Of a stretch of 53,002 nucleotides of DNA, positions 8,877-18,952 are shown piece by piece. Under the pieces are notes generated by a model. It made no database searches. It was not told the origin of the DNA and worked only from the letters and a program-made list of their open reading frames with translations. The DNA is from Acidobacteriota bacterium (lineage in GTDB: Bacteria > Acidobacteriota > B3-B38 > Guanabaribacteriales > JAGGZT01): NCBI GenBank assembly GCA_021161905.1, contig JAGGZT010000066.1, positions 1 through 53,002 on the forward strand, given 5' to 3'. Both the position numbers and the translations under genes were made by a program. How positions within the stretch are numbered: position 1 is the stretch's first letter; each line of letters begins with the position of its first letter.

Positions 8877-9008
8877 TTTAACTCTCTCCACTTCCTATAC
8901 CCTCCTTAGGCTTAGAAGGTTCCTTTGATTTGTATTTTATCTCTTATTAGTGAATAGTTAACCCCTTCTTCCCCTTAAGTGAACCGTAAAGAAGGGGGAT
9001 ATTTTGGG

Positions 9009-9037
9009 TTGACAGGGGGAGCTAACTCTGATATATT
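9009..9037 (+). promoter_or_regulatory. Near-consensus sigma-70 promoter upstream of the hydrogenase operon
   Basis: TTGACA at 9009-9014 and TATATT at 9032-9037 with exactly 17 bp between. The predicted start is near 9044. It reads towards the hydrogenase genes through the hairpin region and terminator at 9165. Confidence 0.65.
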
Positions 9038-9086
9038 ATTGCGTTTGTTAAATTGAAATTGATGAAAAGGTTCATTGAGGAGAGAG

Positions 9087-9155
9087 ATGTTTCTTCGCCC
9101 TAAGGAACGAGGAAGACCAATGTTGATACCGTCTTCCTCCTCGTTTCTCGAGTAG
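9087..9155 (+). CDS. Possible 22-aa small protein or leader peptide
   Basis: The ATG at 9087 follows GAGGAG by 4 bp and reads M-F-L-R-P-K-E-R-G-R-P-M-L-I-P-S-S-S-S-F-L-E to TAG at 9153-9155, ten bases before the terminator stem. Placement between promoter and terminator makes it more credible than a random short frame. The run of four Ser could be a leader-peptide signal, but Ser control of hydrogenase would be odd. It overlaps both hairpins, so translation would melt them. No homologue is known to me. Confidence 0.3.
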   Translation: MFLRPKERGRPMLIPSSSSFLE

Positions 9156-9164
9156 GATGTAAGG

Positions 9165-9191
9165 CCCAAGGAATTTTTCTCCTTGGGTTTT
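9165..9191 (+). terminator. Rho-independent terminator between the promoter at 9009 and the hydrogenase operon
   Basis: CCCAAGGA (9165-9172) pairs with TCCTTGGG (9180-9187) around a 7-base loop and is followed by TTTTATTATG. It has the form of an intrinsic terminator in the plus direction. Confidence 0.75.
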
Positions 9192-9313
9192 ATTATGTTT
9201 ATAAGAAGCCTTACAGAGAAAGCTGGCTCTTATAGGTTAGGTTGAAGGGGGGTAGAAAGAGTAATTAGACAAAACAAAGCGACAATAGTTGACAACCTAA
9301 ACGGAGAGGAGAA

Positions 9314-10339
9314 ATGGAGAAGGTTATCGCGAAAAAAGATTGGCTTTCTTTCCTCGCCCACATAGGGAAGAAGCGGACATTGATCGGTCCGGTTAGTAAG
9401 GGAAACGATTTCGTCTTCGCCAAGGTCGATGATCCGGCGAAGATCACCCTTCCCTATGTTCCCACCACACTTCCTCCGCAGAAGGCCCTTGTTCCGCAGA
9501 AAGAGGCTTTGCTCAAATTCGAGTTGGGGAAGGAGCATAAGGTATTTGCTGAGGTAGAGGCAGAGCCACAGGTTCTGGTGGGGGTTCATCCTTGCGATAT
9601 AAACGCTCTTTGGGTTATCGACCAGGCGTTCACCAAGGAGTATGTGGATTACAACTACCTCAAGCGGAAGGAGCTGACCACGATAATCGGGCTCAACTGC
9701 AACGAACCTTGTGATGATAAGAGCTTCTGCTACGATATGGGGAGTCTCAAGGCGGAGGAAAATTACGACATAATGCTTACCGACATTGGAGATAGCTATT
9801 TTATGGAGGTAGCTACTCCTAAGGGTGAGGAGCTTATTTCTGGCTTTTCCGGTGTAAAAGATCCAACCACTGCCGAGAAGGAGAGGCTTTCTGAAGTAGA
9901 GGAGGAAAAGAAGAAGAAGTTTAACTATCGGCTCAAGGTGAAGCGGGAAGAGATCCCCAGGCTCCTCGAACGTTCTTATTACAGCCTGATTTGGGACGCG
10001 CTCGGTGATAGATGCCTCGGCTGTGGTACTTGTACCCTTGTTTGCCCCACCTGTTATTGCTTCAACATCGAGGATAAGCTCGACATCACCTTGAAGACTG
10101 GCGAGAGGATAAGGGTTTGGGATTCCTGTCAGCTTGAGAGCTTTGCCAAGGTGGCTACTGGGGAAAACTTCCGGGAGAGCCGAGCAGCGAGACAGCGCCA
10201 TCGCGTTTTCCGAAAGGGGAAGTATTTAGTAGAGAGATTCGGCAAATTTGGTTGCGTCGGCTGTGGGCGCTGCGTTCGTCAGTGTGTGGTAAACATCGAT
10301 ATCCGGGACATATTCAACCAACTGAAAGGAGTCAAATAA
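9314..10339 (+). CDS. hydB: Group 3b [NiFe] hydrogenase beta subunit, 4Fe-4S protein
   Basis: This 341-aa cytoplasmic electron-transfer subunit matches the sulfhydrogenase beta family. Near residues 233-247 there is a ferredoxin-type cluster motif (C-L-G-C-G-T-C-T-L-V-C-P) with extra cysteines after it, and near 312-322 a second motif (C-V-G-C-G-R-C-V-R-Q-C). The N-terminal half contains V-G-V-H-P-C-D-I-N-A-L, typical of the family. It relays electrons between the flavin subunit and the small subunit. The ATG has GGAGAGGAG upstream. The TAA overlaps the ATG of the next gene. It is the first gene of a run that continues to hypE without a gap above 15 bp. Confidence 0.93.
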   Translation: MEKVIAKKDWLSFLAHIGKKRTLIGPVSKGNDFVFAKVDDPAKITLPYVPTTLPPQKALVPQKEALLKFELGKEHKVFAEVEAEPQVLVGVHPCDINALWVIDQAFTKEYVDYNYLKRKELTTIIGLNCNEPCDDKSFCYDMGSLKAEENYDIMLTDIGDSYFMEVATPKGEELISGFSGVKDPTTAEKERLSEVEEEKKKKFNYRLKVKREEIPRLLERSYYSLIWDALGDRCLGCGTCTLVCPTCYCFNIEDKLDITLKTGERIRVWDSCQLESFAKVATGENFRESRAARQRHRVFRKGKYLVERFGKFGCVGCGRCVRQCVVNIDIRDIFNQLKGVK

Positions 10340-11178
10340 TGGAGGCAAGGGATATCGCCACCAGATCCCTGTATATTCCCCAACCGGCGGAGATAATAAA
10401 CACTAAAGAGCTTACCGAGTTCGAGAAGCTCTTTGAGATAAGGTTTATCGATGGTCATGAACTTGGCCACAAACCGGGACAATTTGTTCAAGTTTCCATC
10501 CTTGGGATAGGGGAGGCGCCGATCTCGATTACCTCCTCCCCTACCAAGAAAGGGAGCTTTGAGCTTTGTGTCCGCCGGGTGGGAAATGTAACCTCTGCAC
10601 TTCATCGTCTTGATAAGGGGAATATCATTGGGATTCGGGGACCGTTCGGCAATGGGGTGGATGTGGACAAGTTCAAAGGCAAAGAGGTTCTTATAGTGGC
10701 TGGTGGTCTCGGGTTGGCACCGGTTCGTTCCTTCATCAATTACATTCTCGACAGAAGGGAGGAGTTCGGTCCCGTTCATATCCTCTACGGCACCAAGAGG
10801 CCTAAGGAGATCCTCTTTCGGGATGAGGTTGAAGCCTGGGAGAAAAGAGACGATATCGATTTCAAGATCACCGTCGACTGTGGCGATGAGACTTGGCGCG
10901 GTTGTGTCGGAGTGGTGACGGTTCTCTTTAATGACCTTAAGATAGATCCCGAGAACTGTATGGCTATCACCTGTGGTCCTCCGGTTATGTACAAGTTCGT
11001 GGTGAAAGAGATGCTCAAAGAGGGGATCCCCAAGGAACAGATATATCTCTCCCTTGAGAGGAGGATGAAGTGTGGTATGGGTGTTTGTGGTCATTGTCAG
11101 ATCAACAACCGCTATGTCTGTATTGAGGGACCGGTCTTTAATTACGCTGAAATTCAAGGCTTGGAGGAAGCACTATGA
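10339..11178 (+). CDS. hydG: Group 3b [NiFe] hydrogenase gamma subunit, FAD/NAD(P)-binding reductase
   Basis: The 279-aa flavoprotein belongs to the ferredoxin-NADP reductase/dihydroorotate dehydrogenase electron-transfer family. It has the FAD motif near residues 70-110 (P-I-S-I-T-S-S-P), a nucleotide-binding G-G-L-G-L-A-P-V-R-S, and a C-terminal [2Fe-2S] motif (C-G-M-G-V-C-G-H-C, then Y-V-C). It exchanges electrons with NAD(P)H. Start 10339 (TAATG overlap with the beta gene) is chosen; a longer in-frame opening to 10252 would lie wholly within the upstream gene. It ends in an ATGA overlap with the delta gene. NADP rather than NAD use is family knowledge, not proven here. The symbol follows the archaeal sulfhydrogenase scheme and is not the [FeFe] maturase HydG. 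Confidence 0.93.
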   Translation: MEARDIATRSLYIPQPAEIINTKELTEFEKLFEIRFIDGHELGHKPGQFVQVSILGIGEAPISITSSPTKKGSFELCVRRVGNVTSALHRLDKGNIIGIRGPFGNGVDVDKFKGKEVLIVAGGLGLAPVRSFINYILDRREEFGPVHILYGTKRPKEILFRDEVEAWEKRDDIDFKITVDCGDETWRGCVGVVTVLFNDLKIDPENCMAITCGPPVMYKFVVKEMLKEGIPKEQIYLSLERRMKCGMGVCGHCQINNRYVCIEGPVFNYAEIQGLEEAL

Positions 11179-11927
11179 AACCGAAGGTTGCCTTTTTCAG
11201 CTTCACCAGCTGCGAGGGCTGTCAGCTTCAGGTGTTGAACCTTGAGGATGAGATATTGGACCTGGTAGGTCAGGTTGAAATAACCCAATTCCGGGAGGCG
11301 ATGGACAAGATATCGGACGAGTACGATATCGCCTTCGTCGAGGGGTCCGTCTCTCAGGAATCGGAGATAGAGCGGCTCAAGAAAATAAGGGAGAAGGCGA
11401 AATATGTGGTTGCCTTGGGAGCCTGTGCTGTTCTTGGCTGTGTCAATGCCCTCCGCAACCGGCTGAGCCGTGATGAGGCTCACAAGCTGGTTTACAACAA
11501 AGAGGCTAAAGGAGACCCGGAATTTCCGGTAAGGCCCATAGATGAAGTGGTTAAGGTAGATTACAGAGTCTATGGTTGCCCTATCGATAAGGGGGAGTTT
11601 CTTGAGGTGATTGCTTCTCTTCTTATAGGGAAGAAGCCGAACATACCCGATTATCCCGTCTGTGTGGAATGCAAGCTGAAGGAGAATGAATGTCTCATTT
11701 TGAATGGGAAGTGGTGTCTTGGTCCTATCACCAGAGCGGGTTGCGGAGCCATCTGCCCGAGCAACGGCAATAGCTGTGAGGGTTGCCGTGGTTTCCTTCC
11801 CGAAGCCAACATCGCTTCACTCGTTGAGGAGCTTACTGAGCGCGGATTCTCGCCGGAAGAGATAAGGGCAAAAATGGAGTTATTCAACTATTTTCAATTA
11901 GAGGCGAAAAATGGCAGAAAATATTAA
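11175..11927 (+). CDS. hydD: Group 3b [NiFe] hydrogenase small (delta) subunit
   Basis: The 250-aa small subunit has the proximal-cluster signature at the very N-terminus (S-C-E-G-C-Q-L-Q), A-L-G-A-C-A-V-L-G-C and Y-G-C-P-I-D. It then has an added cysteine-rich C-terminal part (C-V-E-C, C-x-x-N, C-G-A-I-C-P, C-E-G-C) that can hold further [4Fe-4S] clusters, as in archaeal sulfhydrogenase delta subunits. No Tat signal is present, so the complex stays in the cytoplasm. The gene overlaps hydG by 4 bp and hydA by 17 bp. The family wires electrons from the NiFe site to the beta and gamma subunits. Confidence 0.93.
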   Translation: MKPKVAFFSFTSCEGCQLQVLNLEDEILDLVGQVEITQFREAMDKISDEYDIAFVEGSVSQESEIERLKKIREKAKYVVALGACAVLGCVNALRNRLSRDEAHKLVYNKEAKGDPEFPVRPIDEVVKVDYRVYGCPIDKGEFLEVIASLLIGKKPNIPDYPVCVECKLKENECLILNGKWCLGPITRAGCGAICPSNGNSCEGCRGFLPEANIASLVEELTERGFSPEEIRAKMELFNYFQLEAKNGRKY

Positions 11928-13209
11928 TATAAATGTCCATCATATCACCAGGGTTGAAGGGCACGGAAACATCGTGGTAAATGTCCGCGAGGGTAAGATC
12001 GAGGAATTGAAGTTGGAGATAACGGAATCTCCGCGGTTCTTCGAGGCTTTCCTTCGTGGGCGGCATATAAGCGAGGCTCCCCATATTACCTCCCGTATTT
12101 GCGGTATCTGTGGGGTAGGGCATACCCTCGCTTCAATTGAGGCAGCGGAAGCAGCGGTTGGAATCACCCCGAGTGAGCAGACAGTCCTTTTGAGAAAGCT
12201 TTTGAACCATGGGGAGACCATCCAGAGCCATGTCCTTCACTTCTACTTCCTCGCTGCACCAGACCTCTTTAAGGCAGGGAGTGTCTTTCCTCTCGCTTCC
12301 TCTCACCCCGATGTGGTACATCGTGCCCTGAGAATGAAGAAGCTGGCGAATGATCTTTGTATCGTGACTGGAGGGAGACAGGTCCATCCCATCTCAGCGG
12401 TAATTGGTGGGTTTACTCGTATCCCTACCGAGGCTGAGCTTAAGGATATGAGGGAGCGGTTGGTGGAGGCTCGGGCTGATGTCGATGCCACGGTAGACCT
12501 CTTTGCTGCCAATCCCTTCCCCGAATTCGAGCGGGAGACGGAATTCCTTGCCCTTCGTTCCGATGACGAGTACGCCTTCCTCTACGGGAAGATCGTCTCC
12601 ACCGATGGGGTTGAGGTGGATGTGCCCGAATATAAGAAGGCGGTCAAGGAAAAGGTGGTTGATCACTCTACCGCGAAGCATGCTTCCTCGAGTCGGGATT
12701 CCTATATGGTGGGAGCACTTGCTCGGGTGAGCAACAATTACGACAAGCTTCATCCGCGGGCGAAAGAGGCGGCGGAGAAGCTGGGGTTGAAACTTCCTTG
12801 CTACAATCCGTTTATGAATAACGCAGCGCAGGTGGTAGAGGTGGCTCACTGCGTGGAGGATTCGATAAGGATAATCGATGAACTTCTCTCCCGCGGGCTT
12901 AAGGATGAAAAGCCAATCCCGATAGAGGAGGGGAAGCCGGGGCAGGGTGTAGGTGCGGTTGAAGTACCTCGGGGTACCCTTTATCACGATTACACGGTGG
13001 ATGAGAAGGGGTATCTCACCGACATCAACTGCATCATCCCCACCGCTCAGAACCTGGCGAACATCGAGGCTGATATGTACAAGATGGTTCCTGAGGTGCT
13101 TGATAAATCGGAAGAGGAGATCACCTTCCTTCTCGAGATGCTCGTTCGCGCTTACGATCCCTGCATCTCCTGCTCCGCCCATATCCTCACGGTGAAGTTC
13201 GTAAAGTAG
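11911..13209 (+). CDS. hydA: Group 3b [NiFe] hydrogenase large (alpha, catalytic) subunit
   Basis: The 432-aa NiFe-site subunit carries both metal motifs: R-I-C-G-I-C-G-V-G-H with Cys64 and Cys67, and D-P-C-I-S-C-S-A-H with Cys418 and Cys421. An eight-residue tail after His424 (I-L-T-V-K-F-V-K) is the expected target of the endopeptidase encoded just downstream. The arrangement beta-gamma-delta-alpha and the motif variants match bidirectional NAD(P)-linked group 3b enzymes, which produce or consume H2 and, in some archaea, reduce sulfur. The physiological direction cannot be read from sequence. The ATG lies inside the end of the delta gene. Confidence 0.95.
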   Translation: MAENININVHHITRVEGHGNIVVNVREGKIEELKLEITESPRFFEAFLRGRHISEAPHITSRICGICGVGHTLASIEAAEAAVGITPSEQTVLLRKLLNHGETIQSHVLHFYFLAAPDLFKAGSVFPLASSHPDVVHRALRMKKLANDLCIVTGGRQVHPISAVIGGFTRIPTEAELKDMRERLVEARADVDATVDLFAANPFPEFERETEFLALRSDDEYAFLYGKIVSTDGVEVDVPEYKKAVKEKVVDHSTAKHASSSRDSYMVGALARVSNNYDKLHPRAKEAAEKLGLKLPCYNPFMNNAAQVVEVAHCVEDSIRIIDELLSRGLKDEKPIPIEEGKPGQGVGAVEVPRGTLYHDYTVDEKGYLTDINCIIPTAQNLANIEADMYKMVPEVLDKSEEEITFLLEMLVRAYDPCISCSAHILTVKFVK

Positions 13210-13217
13210 TTCGATTG

Positions 13218-13712
13218 ATGGATGAGGAAAAGACGGTAGTCGTCGGAGTAGGAAACCTTTTATGGCGTGACGAAGGTGTTGGGGTTTATATCCTTTCGGA
13301 GCTTGAGAGAAGGTATGAATTTCCTCCTCAAGTAGAGCTGGTTGATGGTGGTACTGGGGGCTTGGTTTGGCTCCCCTTTGTTCTCGAAGCAGAGCGGTTG
13401 ATCATAATTGATTGTGCCGATTTCGGGGGTACCCCGGGGGAGATGAGGAGGTTTTCCTTCGAGGATATCTCCCCCGGGGTTTCCTTCTCCTCAACCCATG
13501 GGATGAAGGTACCCGAGGTTCTGGAGGTTGCCCGCTCCCTTGGTTCTTTGCCCAAAACGATCATCTTCGGCATTCAGCCTAAGGATTGGCAGGAAGCGGG
13601 AGATGAGCTTTCTCCTGAGCTCTCAGAGCGTATCCCCCATTATGTAAGCTCTGTTATAGCTGAGCTTCGCTCGTATGGGATAGAGGCTAAGGAGAAGGGT
13701 GAAAAGGGTTAG
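13218..13712 (+). CDS. Hydrogenase maturation endopeptidase (HyaD/HybD/FrhD type)
   Basis: The 164-aa nickel-dependent peptidase trims the C-terminal tail of the large subunit after nickel insertion. Typical features are V-G-V-G-N-L-L-W-R-D-E-G-V-G-V at the N-terminus (Asp/Glu nickel ligand), I-I-D-C-A-D-F-G and S-T-H-G-M-K (His ligand). It starts 8 bp after hydA; ATG 13218 is preferred to the adjoining TTG 13215, although neither has a clear ribosome site, so coupling to hydA translation is likely. It is followed after 3 bp by hypB. Its presence agrees with the cleavable tail on the alpha subunit. Confidence 0.9.
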   Translation: MDEEKTVVVGVGNLLWRDEGVGVYILSELERRYEFPPQVELVDGGTGGLVWLPFVLEAERLIIIDCADFGGTPGEMRRFSFEDISPGVSFSSTHGMKVPEVLEVARSLGSLPKTIIFGIQPKDWQEAGDELSPELSERIPHYVSSVIAELRSYGIEAKEKGEKG

Positions 13713-13715
13713 ACG

Positions 13716-14378
13716 ATGGAAAAGGAGATAAGGATAGAGCGGAAGGTTTTCTCAAAGAACGAGGAGATAGCTGAGGAAAACCGCCGTTTATTTAAGAAGC
13801 ACGGGCTTCTCGTTATCAATATGGTAAGCTCACCTGGCTCAGGAAAGACGAGCCTGATCGAGCAGATACTTTCCCGCCTTAAGGATCGGGTGAAGGTTGG
13901 GGTTATCGCTGGCGATGTCCACACCGATCGGGATGCGAAAAGGGCAGCCGCTTTCGGTGTTCCGGTGACGAAGATAGAGACCGGCGGTTCCTGCCATCTG
14001 GACGCGAAGAGGGTGAAGGAGGCTCTTTCCGATATCGATCTTGCTCAAATCGAACTCCTTATCATTGAGAATGTGGGGAACCTCGTTTGCCCCGCGGGCT
14101 ACGACCTTGGTGAGGACTTCAAGCTGGTGGTGATGAGCGTTACCGAGGGGGATGATAAACCGCTCAAGTACCCCGCTATGTTTCGTGCTTCCAAGGTATT
14201 GGTCATCAACAAGGTTGATCTTCTCCCTCACACCAATTTCGATATCGAACTCGCCAGGAAATACGCTTTGGGGATAAATCCAGAACTCGCGATATTCGAG
14301 ACCTCCTGCACTAATGGCGATGGAATAGAGGAGTTTATTACCTTTCTTTCGGAGAAGGTGAAAGAGCTTCCTCAATGA
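13716..14378 (+). CDS. hypB: Hydrogenase nickel-insertion GTPase HypB
   Basis: The 220-aa GTPase of the SIMIBI class has a P-loop S-S-P-G-S-G-K-T-S (38-46), switch region A-G-D-V-H-T-D-R-D-A, N-V-G-N-L-V-C-P-A and base-recognition N-K-V-D. Its C-terminal half contains the conserved Cys in V-C-P and E-T-S-C. It lacks both the N-terminal C-x-x-C-G-C nickel site of E. coli HypB and the His-rich stretch of rhizobial forms, so nickel storage here is not by HypB. With HypA it would load nickel into the Fe(CN)2CO precursor, but no hypA is in the window. It overlaps hypF by ATGA. Confidence 0.95.
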   Translation: MEKEIRIERKVFSKNEEIAEENRRLFKKHGLLVINMVSSPGSGKTSLIEQILSRLKDRVKVGVIAGDVHTDRDAKRAAAFGVPVTKIETGGSCHLDAKRVKEALSDIDLAQIELLIIENVGNLVCPAGYDLGEDFKLVVMSVTEGDDKPLKYPAMFRASKVLVINKVDLLPHTNFDIELARKYALGINPELAIFETSCTNGDGIEEFITFLSEKVKELPQ

Positions 14379-16651
14379 GGAAAAGAGCGAGGATAGAGCT
14401 TTCCGGCGTCGTTCAAGGGGTGGGTTTTCGTCCTTTCATCTACCGCTTGGCGAAGGAATACTCCCTTGACGGTTTTGTAGCCAATACCACTCGTGGTGTG
14501 GAGATAGAGGTGGAAGGGGAGGAAGGCTTGCTCTCTCTTTTTATAAATGATATAAAGACTAAAAAGCCACCCCTTGCTTCCATCGAGCGGATGGAGATAA
14601 CCTTCCTTCCACCAAATTCTTATCGCAGGTTTGAAATAAAGGAAAGTAGAAGGGAAGAGGAGCGGACTATCCTCCTTCCACCCGATATCGCTATCTGTGA
14701 TGACTGCCTTCGGGAGCTCTTTTCTCCGGAGGATAGGCGTTACCGTTATCCCTTCATAAACTGCACCAATTGCGGTCCGCGATATACCATCGTTAAAGAC
14801 CTCCCCTACGATCGAGAGCGGACGGTGATGTCCTGCTTCAAGATGTGCCCGGACTGCTCCTCGGAGTATCATAATCCCGAGGATAGGAGGTTTCATGCCC
14901 AACCCAATGCCTGTGAGAGATGTGGTCCCAAGGTCTTTTTGGTGGATAGAGACGGTGATGAGCTTCCTGGAGATCCCATCGCTCTTACATCCTCCCTCCT
15001 CAAGCAGGGGGCGATCTTGGCGATAAAAGGGCTCGGAGGGTTTCATTTAGCGGTCGATGCGGTAAATGATGAGGCGGTTCTTAAGCTCAGAGATAGGAAA
15101 AAACGTCCGGCAAAACCATTTGCGGTTATGTCCTTCGGGCTTCCCGAGGTAAAGCGTTACGCCTTGGTCTCCACGAAGGAAGAAGCCCTCCTTACTTCGC
15201 CTGAGAGACCTATTGTCCTTCTCAGGAAGAGGAAGGAGAGGGTGCTTTCGGAGCTGGTGGCACCTGATACCGCCCTGATTGGGGCGATGCTTCCCTATAC
15301 CCCACTTCATTATCTTATCCTTTCTTACGGTTTTATCGCTTTGGTGATGACCTCGGGGAATATCTCCGAGGAACCGATTGTGAAGGACAATGAGGAAGCA
15401 CTCTCTCGCCTCGGTGATATTGCCGATTATTTCCTCCTTCACGATCGAGATATTGCCCGCCGGGCTGACGACTCCGTGGTTCGAGTAATGGATGACGCTC
15501 CAATTATTATCCGTCGTTCCCGGGGTTATGTTCCGAAACCGATCGAACTCCCTGTCGCTAACGGAAACATATTGGCTGTCGGGGGAGAGATGAAAAATAC
15601 CATATGTCTTACCCGAGGGAACATCGCCTTCTTGAGCCAGCATATAGGGGAGCTTGAAAGCCCGAGGACGATCGACTTTTTCACCGCTGCCGTCAAAGAC
15701 TTAGAGCGACTTTTTGGGATAGAGCCGGAAGCGGTTGCTTATGATCTCCATCCGGGATACCGATCGACCGAGTTCGCCCTGAACCTCGATGGGCTTGAGA
15801 AAATCGGGGTACAGCATCATCACGCTCACATCGCCTCGGTAATGGCGGAGCATCGGATAGAGGACCCGGTCCTCGGCTTGGCTTTGGATGGCACGGGCTA
15901 CGGCAGTGATGGAAGGATTTGGGGCGGTGAACTTCTCCTCGTTGACTATGACAACTTCAGGAGGTTGGGGCACTTTCGTTATTTTCCCCTGCCAGGCGGA
16001 GAAAGGGCGATAAAGGAGCCTTACCGCACTGGATTGAGCCTTCTTTACGCCGTTTTCGGGAGAGACCTCTCCTCTCTTCCCCTGAAGATAATCCGGGAAA
16101 GAGAGGGGAATGAACTGGACCTCATCATCGAGATGATGGAAAAAGGGGTGAATGCTCCCCTGACCTCGAGTTGTGGCAGGCTTTTTGATGGAGTGGTAGC
16201 TATCATTGGTCTTAAGGATAGGGTAAGCTATGAAGCGCAGGCGGCGGTTCGTCTGGAGATGATAACAAGTCTGGAGGAGGGGGAAGGTTATCCTTTTGAG
16301 ATAGCTGAAGAAGGAGATGAGCTCATCTTCGAGATCAATCCGATAATTGAGGGGGTGGCTTCCGATGCTATTTCCGGGGTTTCTCCCGCGAGGATCGGGG
16401 GAAGGTTCCATAAGACGCTGATTTCGCTTTTTACTAAAGCACTCTCCTTGGCGCGGGACAAAACGGGGGTGAATCGGGTGGCGCTTTCCGGTGGCGTGTT
16501 TCAAAATGGGATAATTACCCGCGAGCTTCACCGAGCTCTCTCCGGGTTGGGATTTGAGGTGTATCTCAATCGATTGGTGCCGCCGAATGACGGCGGTATC
16601 TCCTTAGGTCAGGCGGTGGTAGCCGCTGCAAGGAGGAAGCGATGTGTTTAG
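14375..16651 (+). CDS. hypF: Carbamoyltransferase HypF
   Basis: The full-length 758-aa enzyme makes the cyanide precursor of the NiFe site from carbamoyl phosphate. Domains in order are: acylphosphatase-like (G-V-V-Q-G-V-G-F-R-P-F, about 7-90), two zinc fingers of C-x2-C-x18-C-x2-C type (about 109-185), YrdC-like ATP-binding domain (about 200-385), and a Kae1/TobZ-like domain with H-H-H-A-H near 488 and G-L-A-L-D-G-T-G-Y-G-S-D-G. It transfers the carbamoyl group to the C-terminal Cys of HypE as thiocarbamate. It overlaps hypB by 4 bp and hypC by 10 bp. Confidence 0.96.
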   Translation: MRKRARIELSGVVQGVGFRPFIYRLAKEYSLDGFVANTTRGVEIEVEGEEGLLSLFINDIKTKKPPLASIERMEITFLPPNSYRRFEIKESRREEERTILLPPDIAICDDCLRELFSPEDRRYRYPFINCTNCGPRYTIVKDLPYDRERTVMSCFKMCPDCSSEYHNPEDRRFHAQPNACERCGPKVFLVDRDGDELPGDPIALTSSLLKQGAILAIKGLGGFHLAVDAVNDEAVLKLRDRKKRPAKPFAVMSFGLPEVKRYALVSTKEEALLTSPERPIVLLRKRKERVLSELVAPDTALIGAMLPYTPLHYLILSYGFIALVMTSGNISEEPIVKDNEEALSRLGDIADYFLLHDRDIARRADDSVVRVMDDAPIIIRRSRGYVPKPIELPVANGNILAVGGEMKNTICLTRGNIAFLSQHIGELESPRTIDFFTAAVKDLERLFGIEPEAVAYDLHPGYRSTEFALNLDGLEKIGVQHHHAHIASVMAEHRIEDPVLGLALDGTGYGSDGRIWGGELLLVDYDNFRRLGHFRYFPLPGGERAIKEPYRTGLSLLYAVFGRDLSSLPLKIIREREGNELDLIIEMMEKGVNAPLTSSCGRLFDGVVAIIGLKDRVSYEAQAAVRLEMITSLEEGEGYPFEIAEEGDELIFEINPIIEGVASDAISGVSPARIGGRFHKTLISLFTKALSLARDKTGVNRVALSGGVFQNGIITRELHRALSGLGFEVYLNRLVPPNDGGISLGQAVVAAARRKRCV

Positions 16652-16854
16652 GGATACCGATGTTGGTGGTTGAGCGAGAGGGAGATTTCGGCACTTGTGA
16701 GGTATCCAAGGTAAAAAGGAAGGTTAACTTTGCCCTTCTCCCTGAGGCAGTAGCAGGTGATTGGGTCATTGTCCACGCTGGCTTCGCCATCGAAAGGGTG
16801 AACGAGAAGGAAGCAGAGGAGACGCTTAAGCTTCTTTCAGAGCTTGGACGATGA
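16642..16854 (+). CDS. hypC: Hydrogenase assembly chaperone HypC
   Basis: The 70-aa chaperone of the HypC/HybG family begins M-C-L-G-I-P-M. The Cys at position 2, exposed after Met removal, holds the iron centre together with HypD and later contacts the large subunit. A-x-x-G-D-W-V-I-V-H-A-G-F-A is conserved near the C-terminus. Its strong AAGGAGG ribosome site lies inside the end of hypF, and its stop overlaps the hypD start (ATGA). Confidence 0.95.
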   Translation: MCLGIPMLVVEREGDFGTCEVSKVKRKVNFALLPEAVAGDWVIVHAGFAIERVNEKEAEETLKLLSELGR

Positions 16855-17945
16855 AGTTCATCGATGAATTCCGGGATAAGTCTCTTTCCTTGAAACTCGC
16901 TTCCGAGATAGAACGATTGATGGAGGGTGTTTCCCCCCTCTCCTTTATGGAGGTCTGTGGCACTCACACGATGGCGATATTCCGAAACGGGATAAAAGCA
17001 CTCCTTCCGGAGGCTATCAAGCTCGTCTCTGGTCCTGGGTGTCCTGTCTGTGTCACTCCTACCTCCTATATCGATTACGCCATCGCCTTATCCCGGCTTC
17101 CTCAAGTAGTCATCACCACCTTTGGGGATATGGTGCGGGTACCCGGAAGCGATAGAAGCCTCGATGAGGAAAAGGGGGAGGGGGCTCAGGTTAAGGTGGT
17201 CTATTCACCGCTCGATGCGGTGGAATTCGCCGAGAAGAATGAGGGGAAGGAGGTTGTTTTTCTTGGGGTAGGGTTTGAGACCACTGCTCCTACCGTCGCT
17301 GCCTCCATTATCGAGGCGAAAAGAAGGGGACTTCCCAATTTCAGCGTTCTTTCAGCACATAAGCTGATGCCGCCAGCTATGAGAGCACTCGTTGCCTCAG
17401 GGGAGATCGGACTCGATGGCTTCATCCTCCCCGCCCATGTCACCACCATTATCGGCCTTCGTCCTTACCGCTTCCTTGCTGATGAATTCGGGCTTTCGGC
17501 AGTGGTTGCCGGATTTGAACCGATAGACATCCTTGAAGGTATATTGATGCTCGTAAGACAGAGAATAGAGGGGAGAGCGGATATAGAGAACCAGTATCGC
17601 CGGGTGGTTCGACCGGAGGGAAACAAGAGGGCGCAGGAGTTGATCGCCGAGGTATTTACGCCCACCGATGCGGAATGGCGAGGCCTTGGGGTTGTTCCCC
17701 AAAGTGGGCTTAAGATCAAGGAAAAATACGCCCAATTCGACGCTGAGAGGCGTTTTAAAATAGAACTTCCTCCGGTTAAAGATAACCCTGCCTGCCGTTG
17801 TGGGGAGGTGATAAAGGGGTTGATTCCTCCCCTCGATTGCCCCCTTTATCAGAAGGTTTGTACCCCGGAGCATCCAATAGGTCCTTGTATGGTCTCATCC
17901 GAAGGAACCTGTGCTGCCTACTATAAGTATGGAGGCTTTGAGTGA
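16851..17945 (+). CDS. hypD: Hydrogenase iron-cofactor assembly protein HypD
   Basis: The 364-aa [4Fe-4S] protein is the scaffold where Fe(CN)2CO is built with HypC and HypE. Conserved motifs are C-G-T-H-T (36-40), G-P-G-C-P-V-C-V-T-P (61-70, Cys64 and Cys67), and a C-terminal cysteine set (C-R-C-G, D-C-P-L-Y, V-C-T-P, G-P-C-M-V-S) for the iron-sulfur cluster. The length is normal. Overlaps with both neighbours are 4 bp. Confidence 0.96.
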   Translation: MKFIDEFRDKSLSLKLASEIERLMEGVSPLSFMEVCGTHTMAIFRNGIKALLPEAIKLVSGPGCPVCVTPTSYIDYAIALSRLPQVVITTFGDMVRVPGSDRSLDEEKGEGAQVKVVYSPLDAVEFAEKNEGKEVVFLGVGFETTAPTVAASIIEAKRRGLPNFSVLSAHKLMPPAMRALVASGEIGLDGFILPAHVTTIIGLRPYRFLADEFGLSAVVAGFEPIDILEGILMLVRQRIEGRADIENQYRRVVRPEGNKRAQELIAEVFTPTDAEWRGLGVVPQSGLKIKEKYAQFDAERRFKIELPPVKDNPACRCGEVIKGLIPPLDCPLYQKVCTPEHPIGPCMVSSEGTCAAYYKYGGFE

Positions 17946-18952
17946 AACGGGATAGGGTCGTTCTGGGACACGGAAGCGGGGGAAAGCTGACCTCGGAGTT
18001 GATAAGGGAGATATTTCTCCCTCGATTTAGAAATCCCATCCTTTCCTCTCTCTCCGATTCCGCCGTCTTCTCTCATAAAGACATCCGCTTTGCCTTCACC
18101 ACCGATTCTTATGTCGTCGATCCCATATTCTTCCCCGGAGGAGATATCGGACGGCTGGCTATCTACGGTACGGTCAATGACCTGGCGATGAGTGGGGCTC
18201 AGCCGGTTTTCCTTTCCGCTGGTTTCATCCTCGAGGAGGGTTTTCTCATCAGCGATCTTGAGCGGATAGCTGATTCTATGGCGGAGGCAGCTTCTGAATG
18301 CGGAATTTCTTTGATCGCTGGTGATACCAAGGTGGTGCCCAAAGGAAAGGGCGATAAGGTCTTCATCAACACCTCTGGAATAGGGATTGTCCCCCAAGGG
18401 GTGGATATCTCCCCAACCAAGGTTAAGCCGGGGGATGTGATTATTATAAACGGAGGGATAGGGGAACACGGCATCGCGGTTATCGCAGCGAGGGAAGAAC
18501 TTTCCCTTTCTTCCGAGATAGAAAGTGATCTTGCTCCCCTTCATCGCCTCGTCTCCCGGATGCTTTCGGAAACGAAGAGGATAAACGCCCTCCGCGACCT
18601 TACCCGAGGGGGGCTCGGAACTGCTTTAGCGGAGATCGCTCGTCAGGCGAAAGTGGGAATGGTCGTTGAGGAGGAGAAAATCCCGGTAAGAGATGAGGTC
18701 AAGGGCGCTTGCGAGCTTCTTGGTTTCGATCCCCTTTATGTGGCGAACGAAGGGAAATTGATAGCCTTCTGCCCTGAGGAAGAAGCGGAAGGATTGATCA
18801 CTGCAATGAGGAAAGACCCAAAAGGAAGGGATGCAGTAATAATAGGGAAGGTCGTTTCGGAACATCCGGGAAGGGTGATATTGAGGACGAGGGTTGGTGG
18901 GGAACGTCTGGTTGATCTTCTTCCCGGAGAGCAACTCCCCCGGATCTGTTAG
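17942..18952 (+). CDS. hypE: Hydrogenase maturation protein HypE
   Basis: The 336-aa member of the PurM/AIR-synthase-like family dehydrates the thiocarbamate on its own C-terminal Cys to a thiocyanate. The N-terminus has G-H-G-S-G-G, there is G-D-T-K-V-V near residue 128, and the protein ends in P-R-I-C, the essential terminal Cys. The start is GTG, overlapping the hypD stop (GTGA). It is the last gene of the hydrogenase operon and overlaps the convergent recN stop by three bases. Confidence 0.96.
   Translation: MKRDRVVLGHGSGGKLTSELIREIFLPRFRNPILSSLSDSAVFSHKDIRFAFTTDSYVVDPIFFPGGDIGRLAIYGTVNDLAMSGAQPVFLSAGFILEEGFLISDLERIADSMAEAASECGISLIAGDTKVVPKGKGDKVFINTSGIGIVPQGVDISPTKVKPGDVIIINGGIGEHGIAVIAAREELSLSSEIESDLAPLHRLVSRMLSETKRINALRDLTRGGLGTALAEIARQAKVGMVVEEEKIPVRDEVKGACELLGFDPLYVANEGKLIAFCPEEEAEGLITAMRKDPKGRDAVIIGKVVSEHPGRVILRTRVGGERLVDLLPGEQLPRIC

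Follow-up and report, generated by a model that had tools for sequence, protein, structure and literature searches.

Between a divergent minus-strand gene and the hydrogenase operon of an Acidobacteriota bacterium lies a short candidate leader unit, in which a promoter, a Shine-Dalgarno site, a small reading frame and an intrinsic terminator follow one another ahead of the first hydrogenase gene, hydB. Which role does such a unit play? A sequence-only reading of the 53,002-nucleotide stretch of DNA analysed here (the window) had offered two answers: an attenuated leader, in which translation or a ligand decides read-through into the hydrogenase genes, or an independent small RNA or micro-protein. 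We consider that the unit may be a translation-coupled transcription attenuator of the hydrogenase operon, a proposal to which we give about an even chance.

A compact transcription unit ahead of the hydrogenase genes

The promoter, the ribosome site, the 22-codon frame and the terminator described in the sequence-only reading were all found in their places, and the hydrogenase operon downstream was confirmed from hydB to hypE (Table 1).

Table 1. Coordinates of the leader unit and the hydrogenase operon in the window
Feature	Position	Strand	Details
Sigma-70-type promoter, TTGACA-17-TATATT with TG extension	9009..9037	+	TTGACA 9009-9014, TATATT 9032-9037
Shine-Dalgarno site of the short frame, GAGGAG	9077..9082	+	
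22-codon frame, MFLRPKERGRPMLIPSSSSFLE	9087..9155	+	ATG 9087, stop TAG 9153-9155; putative translation
Hairpin inside the frame	9109..9139	+	9 pairs, 13-nt loop; extendable to 9103-9148
Intrinsic terminator, -18.6 kcal/mol	9159..9193	+	core stem 9165-9172/9180-9187, 7-nt loop, T-rich tail
Gap between terminator and hydB	9194..9313	+	hydB Shine-Dalgarno site at 9303-9311
Operon hydB, hydG, hydD, hydA, maturation protease, hypB, hypF, hypC, hypD, hypE	9314..18952	+	

The leader promoter matches the consensus at 11 of 12 positions, carries the TG extension in addition and predicts a transcription start at about 9041-9045. Its weight-matrix score of 15.95, from a matrix of approximate E. coli base frequencies, exceeds that of every other gene start which was checked in the window. 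Shuffling of the 453-bp intergenic region produced an 11/12 promoter in 0.3% of cases, and in none of 2000 shuffles did one arise together with the TG extension. When the 150 nt were shuffled, a Shine-Dalgarno site followed by an ATG frame of at least 20 codons arose in 0.27% of cases, rising to 1.8% if every start codon was allowed, so that this combination exceeds chance. The full terminator stem comprises 14 pairs, and the fold z-score of 9044-9196 is -3.64. These shuffle and fold statistics are all post hoc tests, and for this reason a scan for uniqueness within the genome is the stronger result. In 309 kb of the genome (the window and 13 further stretches), scanned on both strands with fixed thresholds, the leader unit is the sole non-coding promoter-terminator pair within 220 nt, the thresholds having been picked with the unit already known. 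The reversed-sequence control returned zero pairs. Pattern search of the genome found no further copies of the in-frame hairpin or the terminator; short partial DNA matches occur elsewhere in the genome, and the one inspected (L041) lacks a hairpin resembling a terminator. No match to the unit came from plasmid, phage or viral collections. Judged by its sequence, the leader unit appears to be a distinct and unusual short transcription unit.

The operon, which starts 121 bp downstream of the leader unit, is complete with its ten genes and encodes a sulfhydrogenase-type [NiFe] hydrogenase. Among solved structures, its large subunit is nearest to sulfhydrogenase 1 alpha. NCBIfam sulfhydrogenase models rank first for three subunits (alpha, beta and delta) and are among the leading matches for gamma, all scoring below the equivalog cut-offs; 'group 3b' is therefore a fair rather than a formal label. 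The operon had been read as having no convincing promoter of its own, and the present analysis agrees: sigma-70 scores in 9192-9313 reach at most 5.83, which does not exceed what shuffling gives (mean 6.31), and the TTGACA at 9289 has no -10 box at the correct distance. This absence is weak evidence, since in the genome sample 24 of 52 divergent first genes also have no recognisable sigma-70 promoter and 28 have one. Right after the terminator, at 9198-9236, lies an imperfect dyad, TATAAGAAGCC-N14-GGCTCTTATA, which might form a third hairpin or serve as an operator.

On the other side of the unit, an inverted repeat (CCCCTTCTT/AAGAAGGGG, 8962-8997) is found directly upstream of the promoter, followed by ATATTTT. 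The divergent gene at 8845-7897 (-) is TPR/carboxypeptidase-regulatory-like and a paralogue of 7702-6572 (-). Two lesions interrupt it, a frame change close to seven consecutive A at about 8466 and an in-frame stop, and it is either a pseudogene or the result of an assembly error.

Ribosome position and terminator formation

Twin adjacent hairpins had been described as overlapping the frame. The hairpin at 9109-9139 holds with a pairing probability of about 0.77, whereas the pair as such depends on the fold, as the neighbouring helices rearrange. The terminator has a pairing probability of 0.99, and forbidding it costs 18.8 kcal/mol. Folding revealed neither a competing antiterminator nor an upstream partner for the 5' arm of the terminator. 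The stop codon of the frame lies 3 nt from the extended terminator stem and 9 nt from the core stem. When a ribosome with an assumed footprint of -13/+16 (30 nt) was placed codon by codon on the frame, the calculated terminator probability changed only at the end: it was 0.99 for all earlier positions, 0.11 with the ribosome on the last sense codon and 0.00 with it on the stop codon. A ribosome that gets as far as the stop would therefore block termination, and the serine run within the frame could not act in the manner of trp leaders.

These calculations fit a mechanism of which we infer transcription, translation, read-through and signal. RNA polymerase would start near 9044 and by default stop at the terminator, at 9193. 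A ribosome trailing close behind the polymerase would translate the 22-codon leader up to its stop codon, where the footprint would cover the 5' arm of the terminator and keep it from forming; the polymerase would then read on into hydB-hypE. The in-frame hairpin is a possible RNA polymerase pause hairpin and may let the ribosome catch up. Translation initiation, peptide release and ribosome supply are candidates for the signal.

The components of a pyrBI/pil1-type attenuator, namely promoter, Shine-Dalgarno site, short frame and terminator, are all present on the same strand upstream of the operon, and the leader stop is near enough for a ribosome of the assumed footprint to block the stem. 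In E. coli, translation up to a stop codon a few bp ahead of a terminator represses that terminator almost completely, and termination fell from ~90% to <10% when a stop was moved from 28 to 5 bp away (PMC4824070). In pil1 of Streptococcus gallolyticus, leader peptides whose end falls close to a terminator or inside it raise downstream transcription, the effect serving there as a means of regulation (PMC3894217). In species with runaway transcription, the polymerase outpaces the ribosome (PMC13323073), and the occlusion effect should be weak or absent there. Runaway-transcription species have purine-rich genes; the mean coding purine fraction of the genome studied here is 0.526, a value uncalibrated against the published classes.

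In favour of an attenuator, the ordinary genes sampled in this genome mostly have at least 14 nt between stop codon and terminator, which puts the spacing of the leader at the short end. Several observations speak against an attenuator. A few ordinary genes also have their terminator 2-7 nt past the stop. Moreover, the calculated fold mostly hides the leader Shine-Dalgarno site (~5% unpaired). Finally, searches of relatives gave neither a related unit nor the peptide, and the in-phylum hydB homologues are without the unit.

Relatives and rival explanations

HydB has a match in 102 of 396 genomes of the phylum, the nearest besides the window's own being 44% identical; within the order, hydB is absent from all three other genomes searched. 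The unit does not regularly accompany hydB: none of 34 homologue loci (29 in the phylum, 5 elsewhere) carries it, a result which, with the nearest homologue at 44% identity, says little on near relatives. Searches of relatives by DNA, by a single-sequence covariance model and by peptide found nothing convincing outside this genome, and a search of 20 relatives gave no convincing homologue of the 22-codon peptide. On the genomes searched, the leader unit is therefore probably specific to this lineage. Several homologue loci carry a near-consensus promoter 58-112 bp before hydB. L014, L020 and L024 have a perfect TTGACA-16-TATAAT promoter 93-112 bp upstream of the hydB homologue, with no strong terminator between. 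Terminators upstream of hydB at three of the closest homologue loci (L010, L011 and L019) were considered as a conserved attenuator and rejected, as they lie just past the stop of a gene which, from reading its sequence, we take to be ComEA-like.

Translation-coupled attenuation, held at roughly even probability, is preferred to a second reading, an independent gene for a small RNA or micro-protein, which we regard as possible and rather less probable. According to the latter, a gene of about 150 nt would be fully ended at the terminator, and the operon would have its own promoter, not sigma-70-like. The unit is indeed complete from promoter to terminator, its fold is stable, and 46% of divergent first genes are without a recognisable sigma-70 promoter. 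A small RNA could use the terminator loop and 3' arm (UUUCUCCU) to pair with Shine-Dalgarno sequences; positions 9176-9183 match the hydB Shine-Dalgarno region, 9307-9314, perfectly over 8 nt (duplex -12.8 kcal/mol). However, anti-Shine-Dalgarno matches come easily by chance in pyrimidine-rich loops, and there is no copy of the unit in relatives or elsewhere in the genome. In addition, translation of the frame by a coupled ribosome would in any case be expected to let the polymerase continue into hydB.

The unit could also be a remnant with no present role, left when a deletion brought together the promoter, the start and the terminator of an earlier gene. The broken state of the adjoining minus-strand gene and the restriction of the unit to this genome are in line with such an origin, but every signal is close to consensus, intact and suitably spaced, and we consider a remnant improbable. 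Least probable is an attenuator of the classical kind or a riboswitch, in which terminator and antiterminator would exclude each other in response to serine or a ligand: four consecutive Ser codons (9132-9143) in a short frame ahead of a terminator suggest it, but with the best fold lacking the terminator 18.8 kcal/mol worse there is no antiterminator, a ribosome at any Ser codon leaves the terminator at 0.99, Rfam gave sub-threshold scores and no family match, and amino-acid attenuators place the terminator >20 bp beyond the stop of the leader (PMC4824070). Since no competing fold exists and the Ser positions are neutral, trp-type serine sensing is unlikely, and both it and the riboswitch model were rejected by folding. 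Of the attenuation first proposed, translation-controlled read-through may thus still operate by direct occlusion at the stop codon, and the switch by ligand or codon is not supported.

Comparison with known attenuators

Most likely, the leader unit is a translation-coupled attenuator of a known type in a new place. The leader is shorter than that of pyrBI in E. coli. It would share with pyrBI the repression of a terminator at the end of the leader peptide by a ribosome close behind RNA polymerase (PMC4824070); it differs in having no link to the pyrimidine pathway and no recognised U-rich pause tract. With pil1 of S. gallolyticus it has in common a promoter, a short leader frame (here putatively translated) and a terminator before an operon, and also, here by calculation, the geometry in which a ribosome at a stop codon close to or inside the terminator can keep it from acting (PMC3894217). 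The GCAGA repeats and phase variation of pil1 are absent from the leader unit, and host bacterium and operon differ, the operon here being one for a hydrogenase. Attenuators of the trp/his type likewise combine a short leader frame with repeated codons, an in-frame hairpin and a terminator before the operon. They have an antiterminator, however, whereas the present unit has none, its terminator is too near the stop, and its codon run is unrelated to the operon product.

The open-access literature searched held nothing specific on an attenuator of a hydrogenase operon. We tentatively suggest that the leader peptide might make transcription of this [NiFe] hydrogenase operon of sulfhydrogenase type depend on the state of translation, hydrogen metabolism being switched on when ribosomes trail the polymerase closely; of this wider role we are more doubtful than confident. 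If attenuation holds true, the operon of a redox enzyme would join the few known systems in which a ribosome on the leader's stop codon exerts control by occluding a terminator, and the unit would be a small system for testing transcription-translation coupling in a lineage so far poorly sampled.
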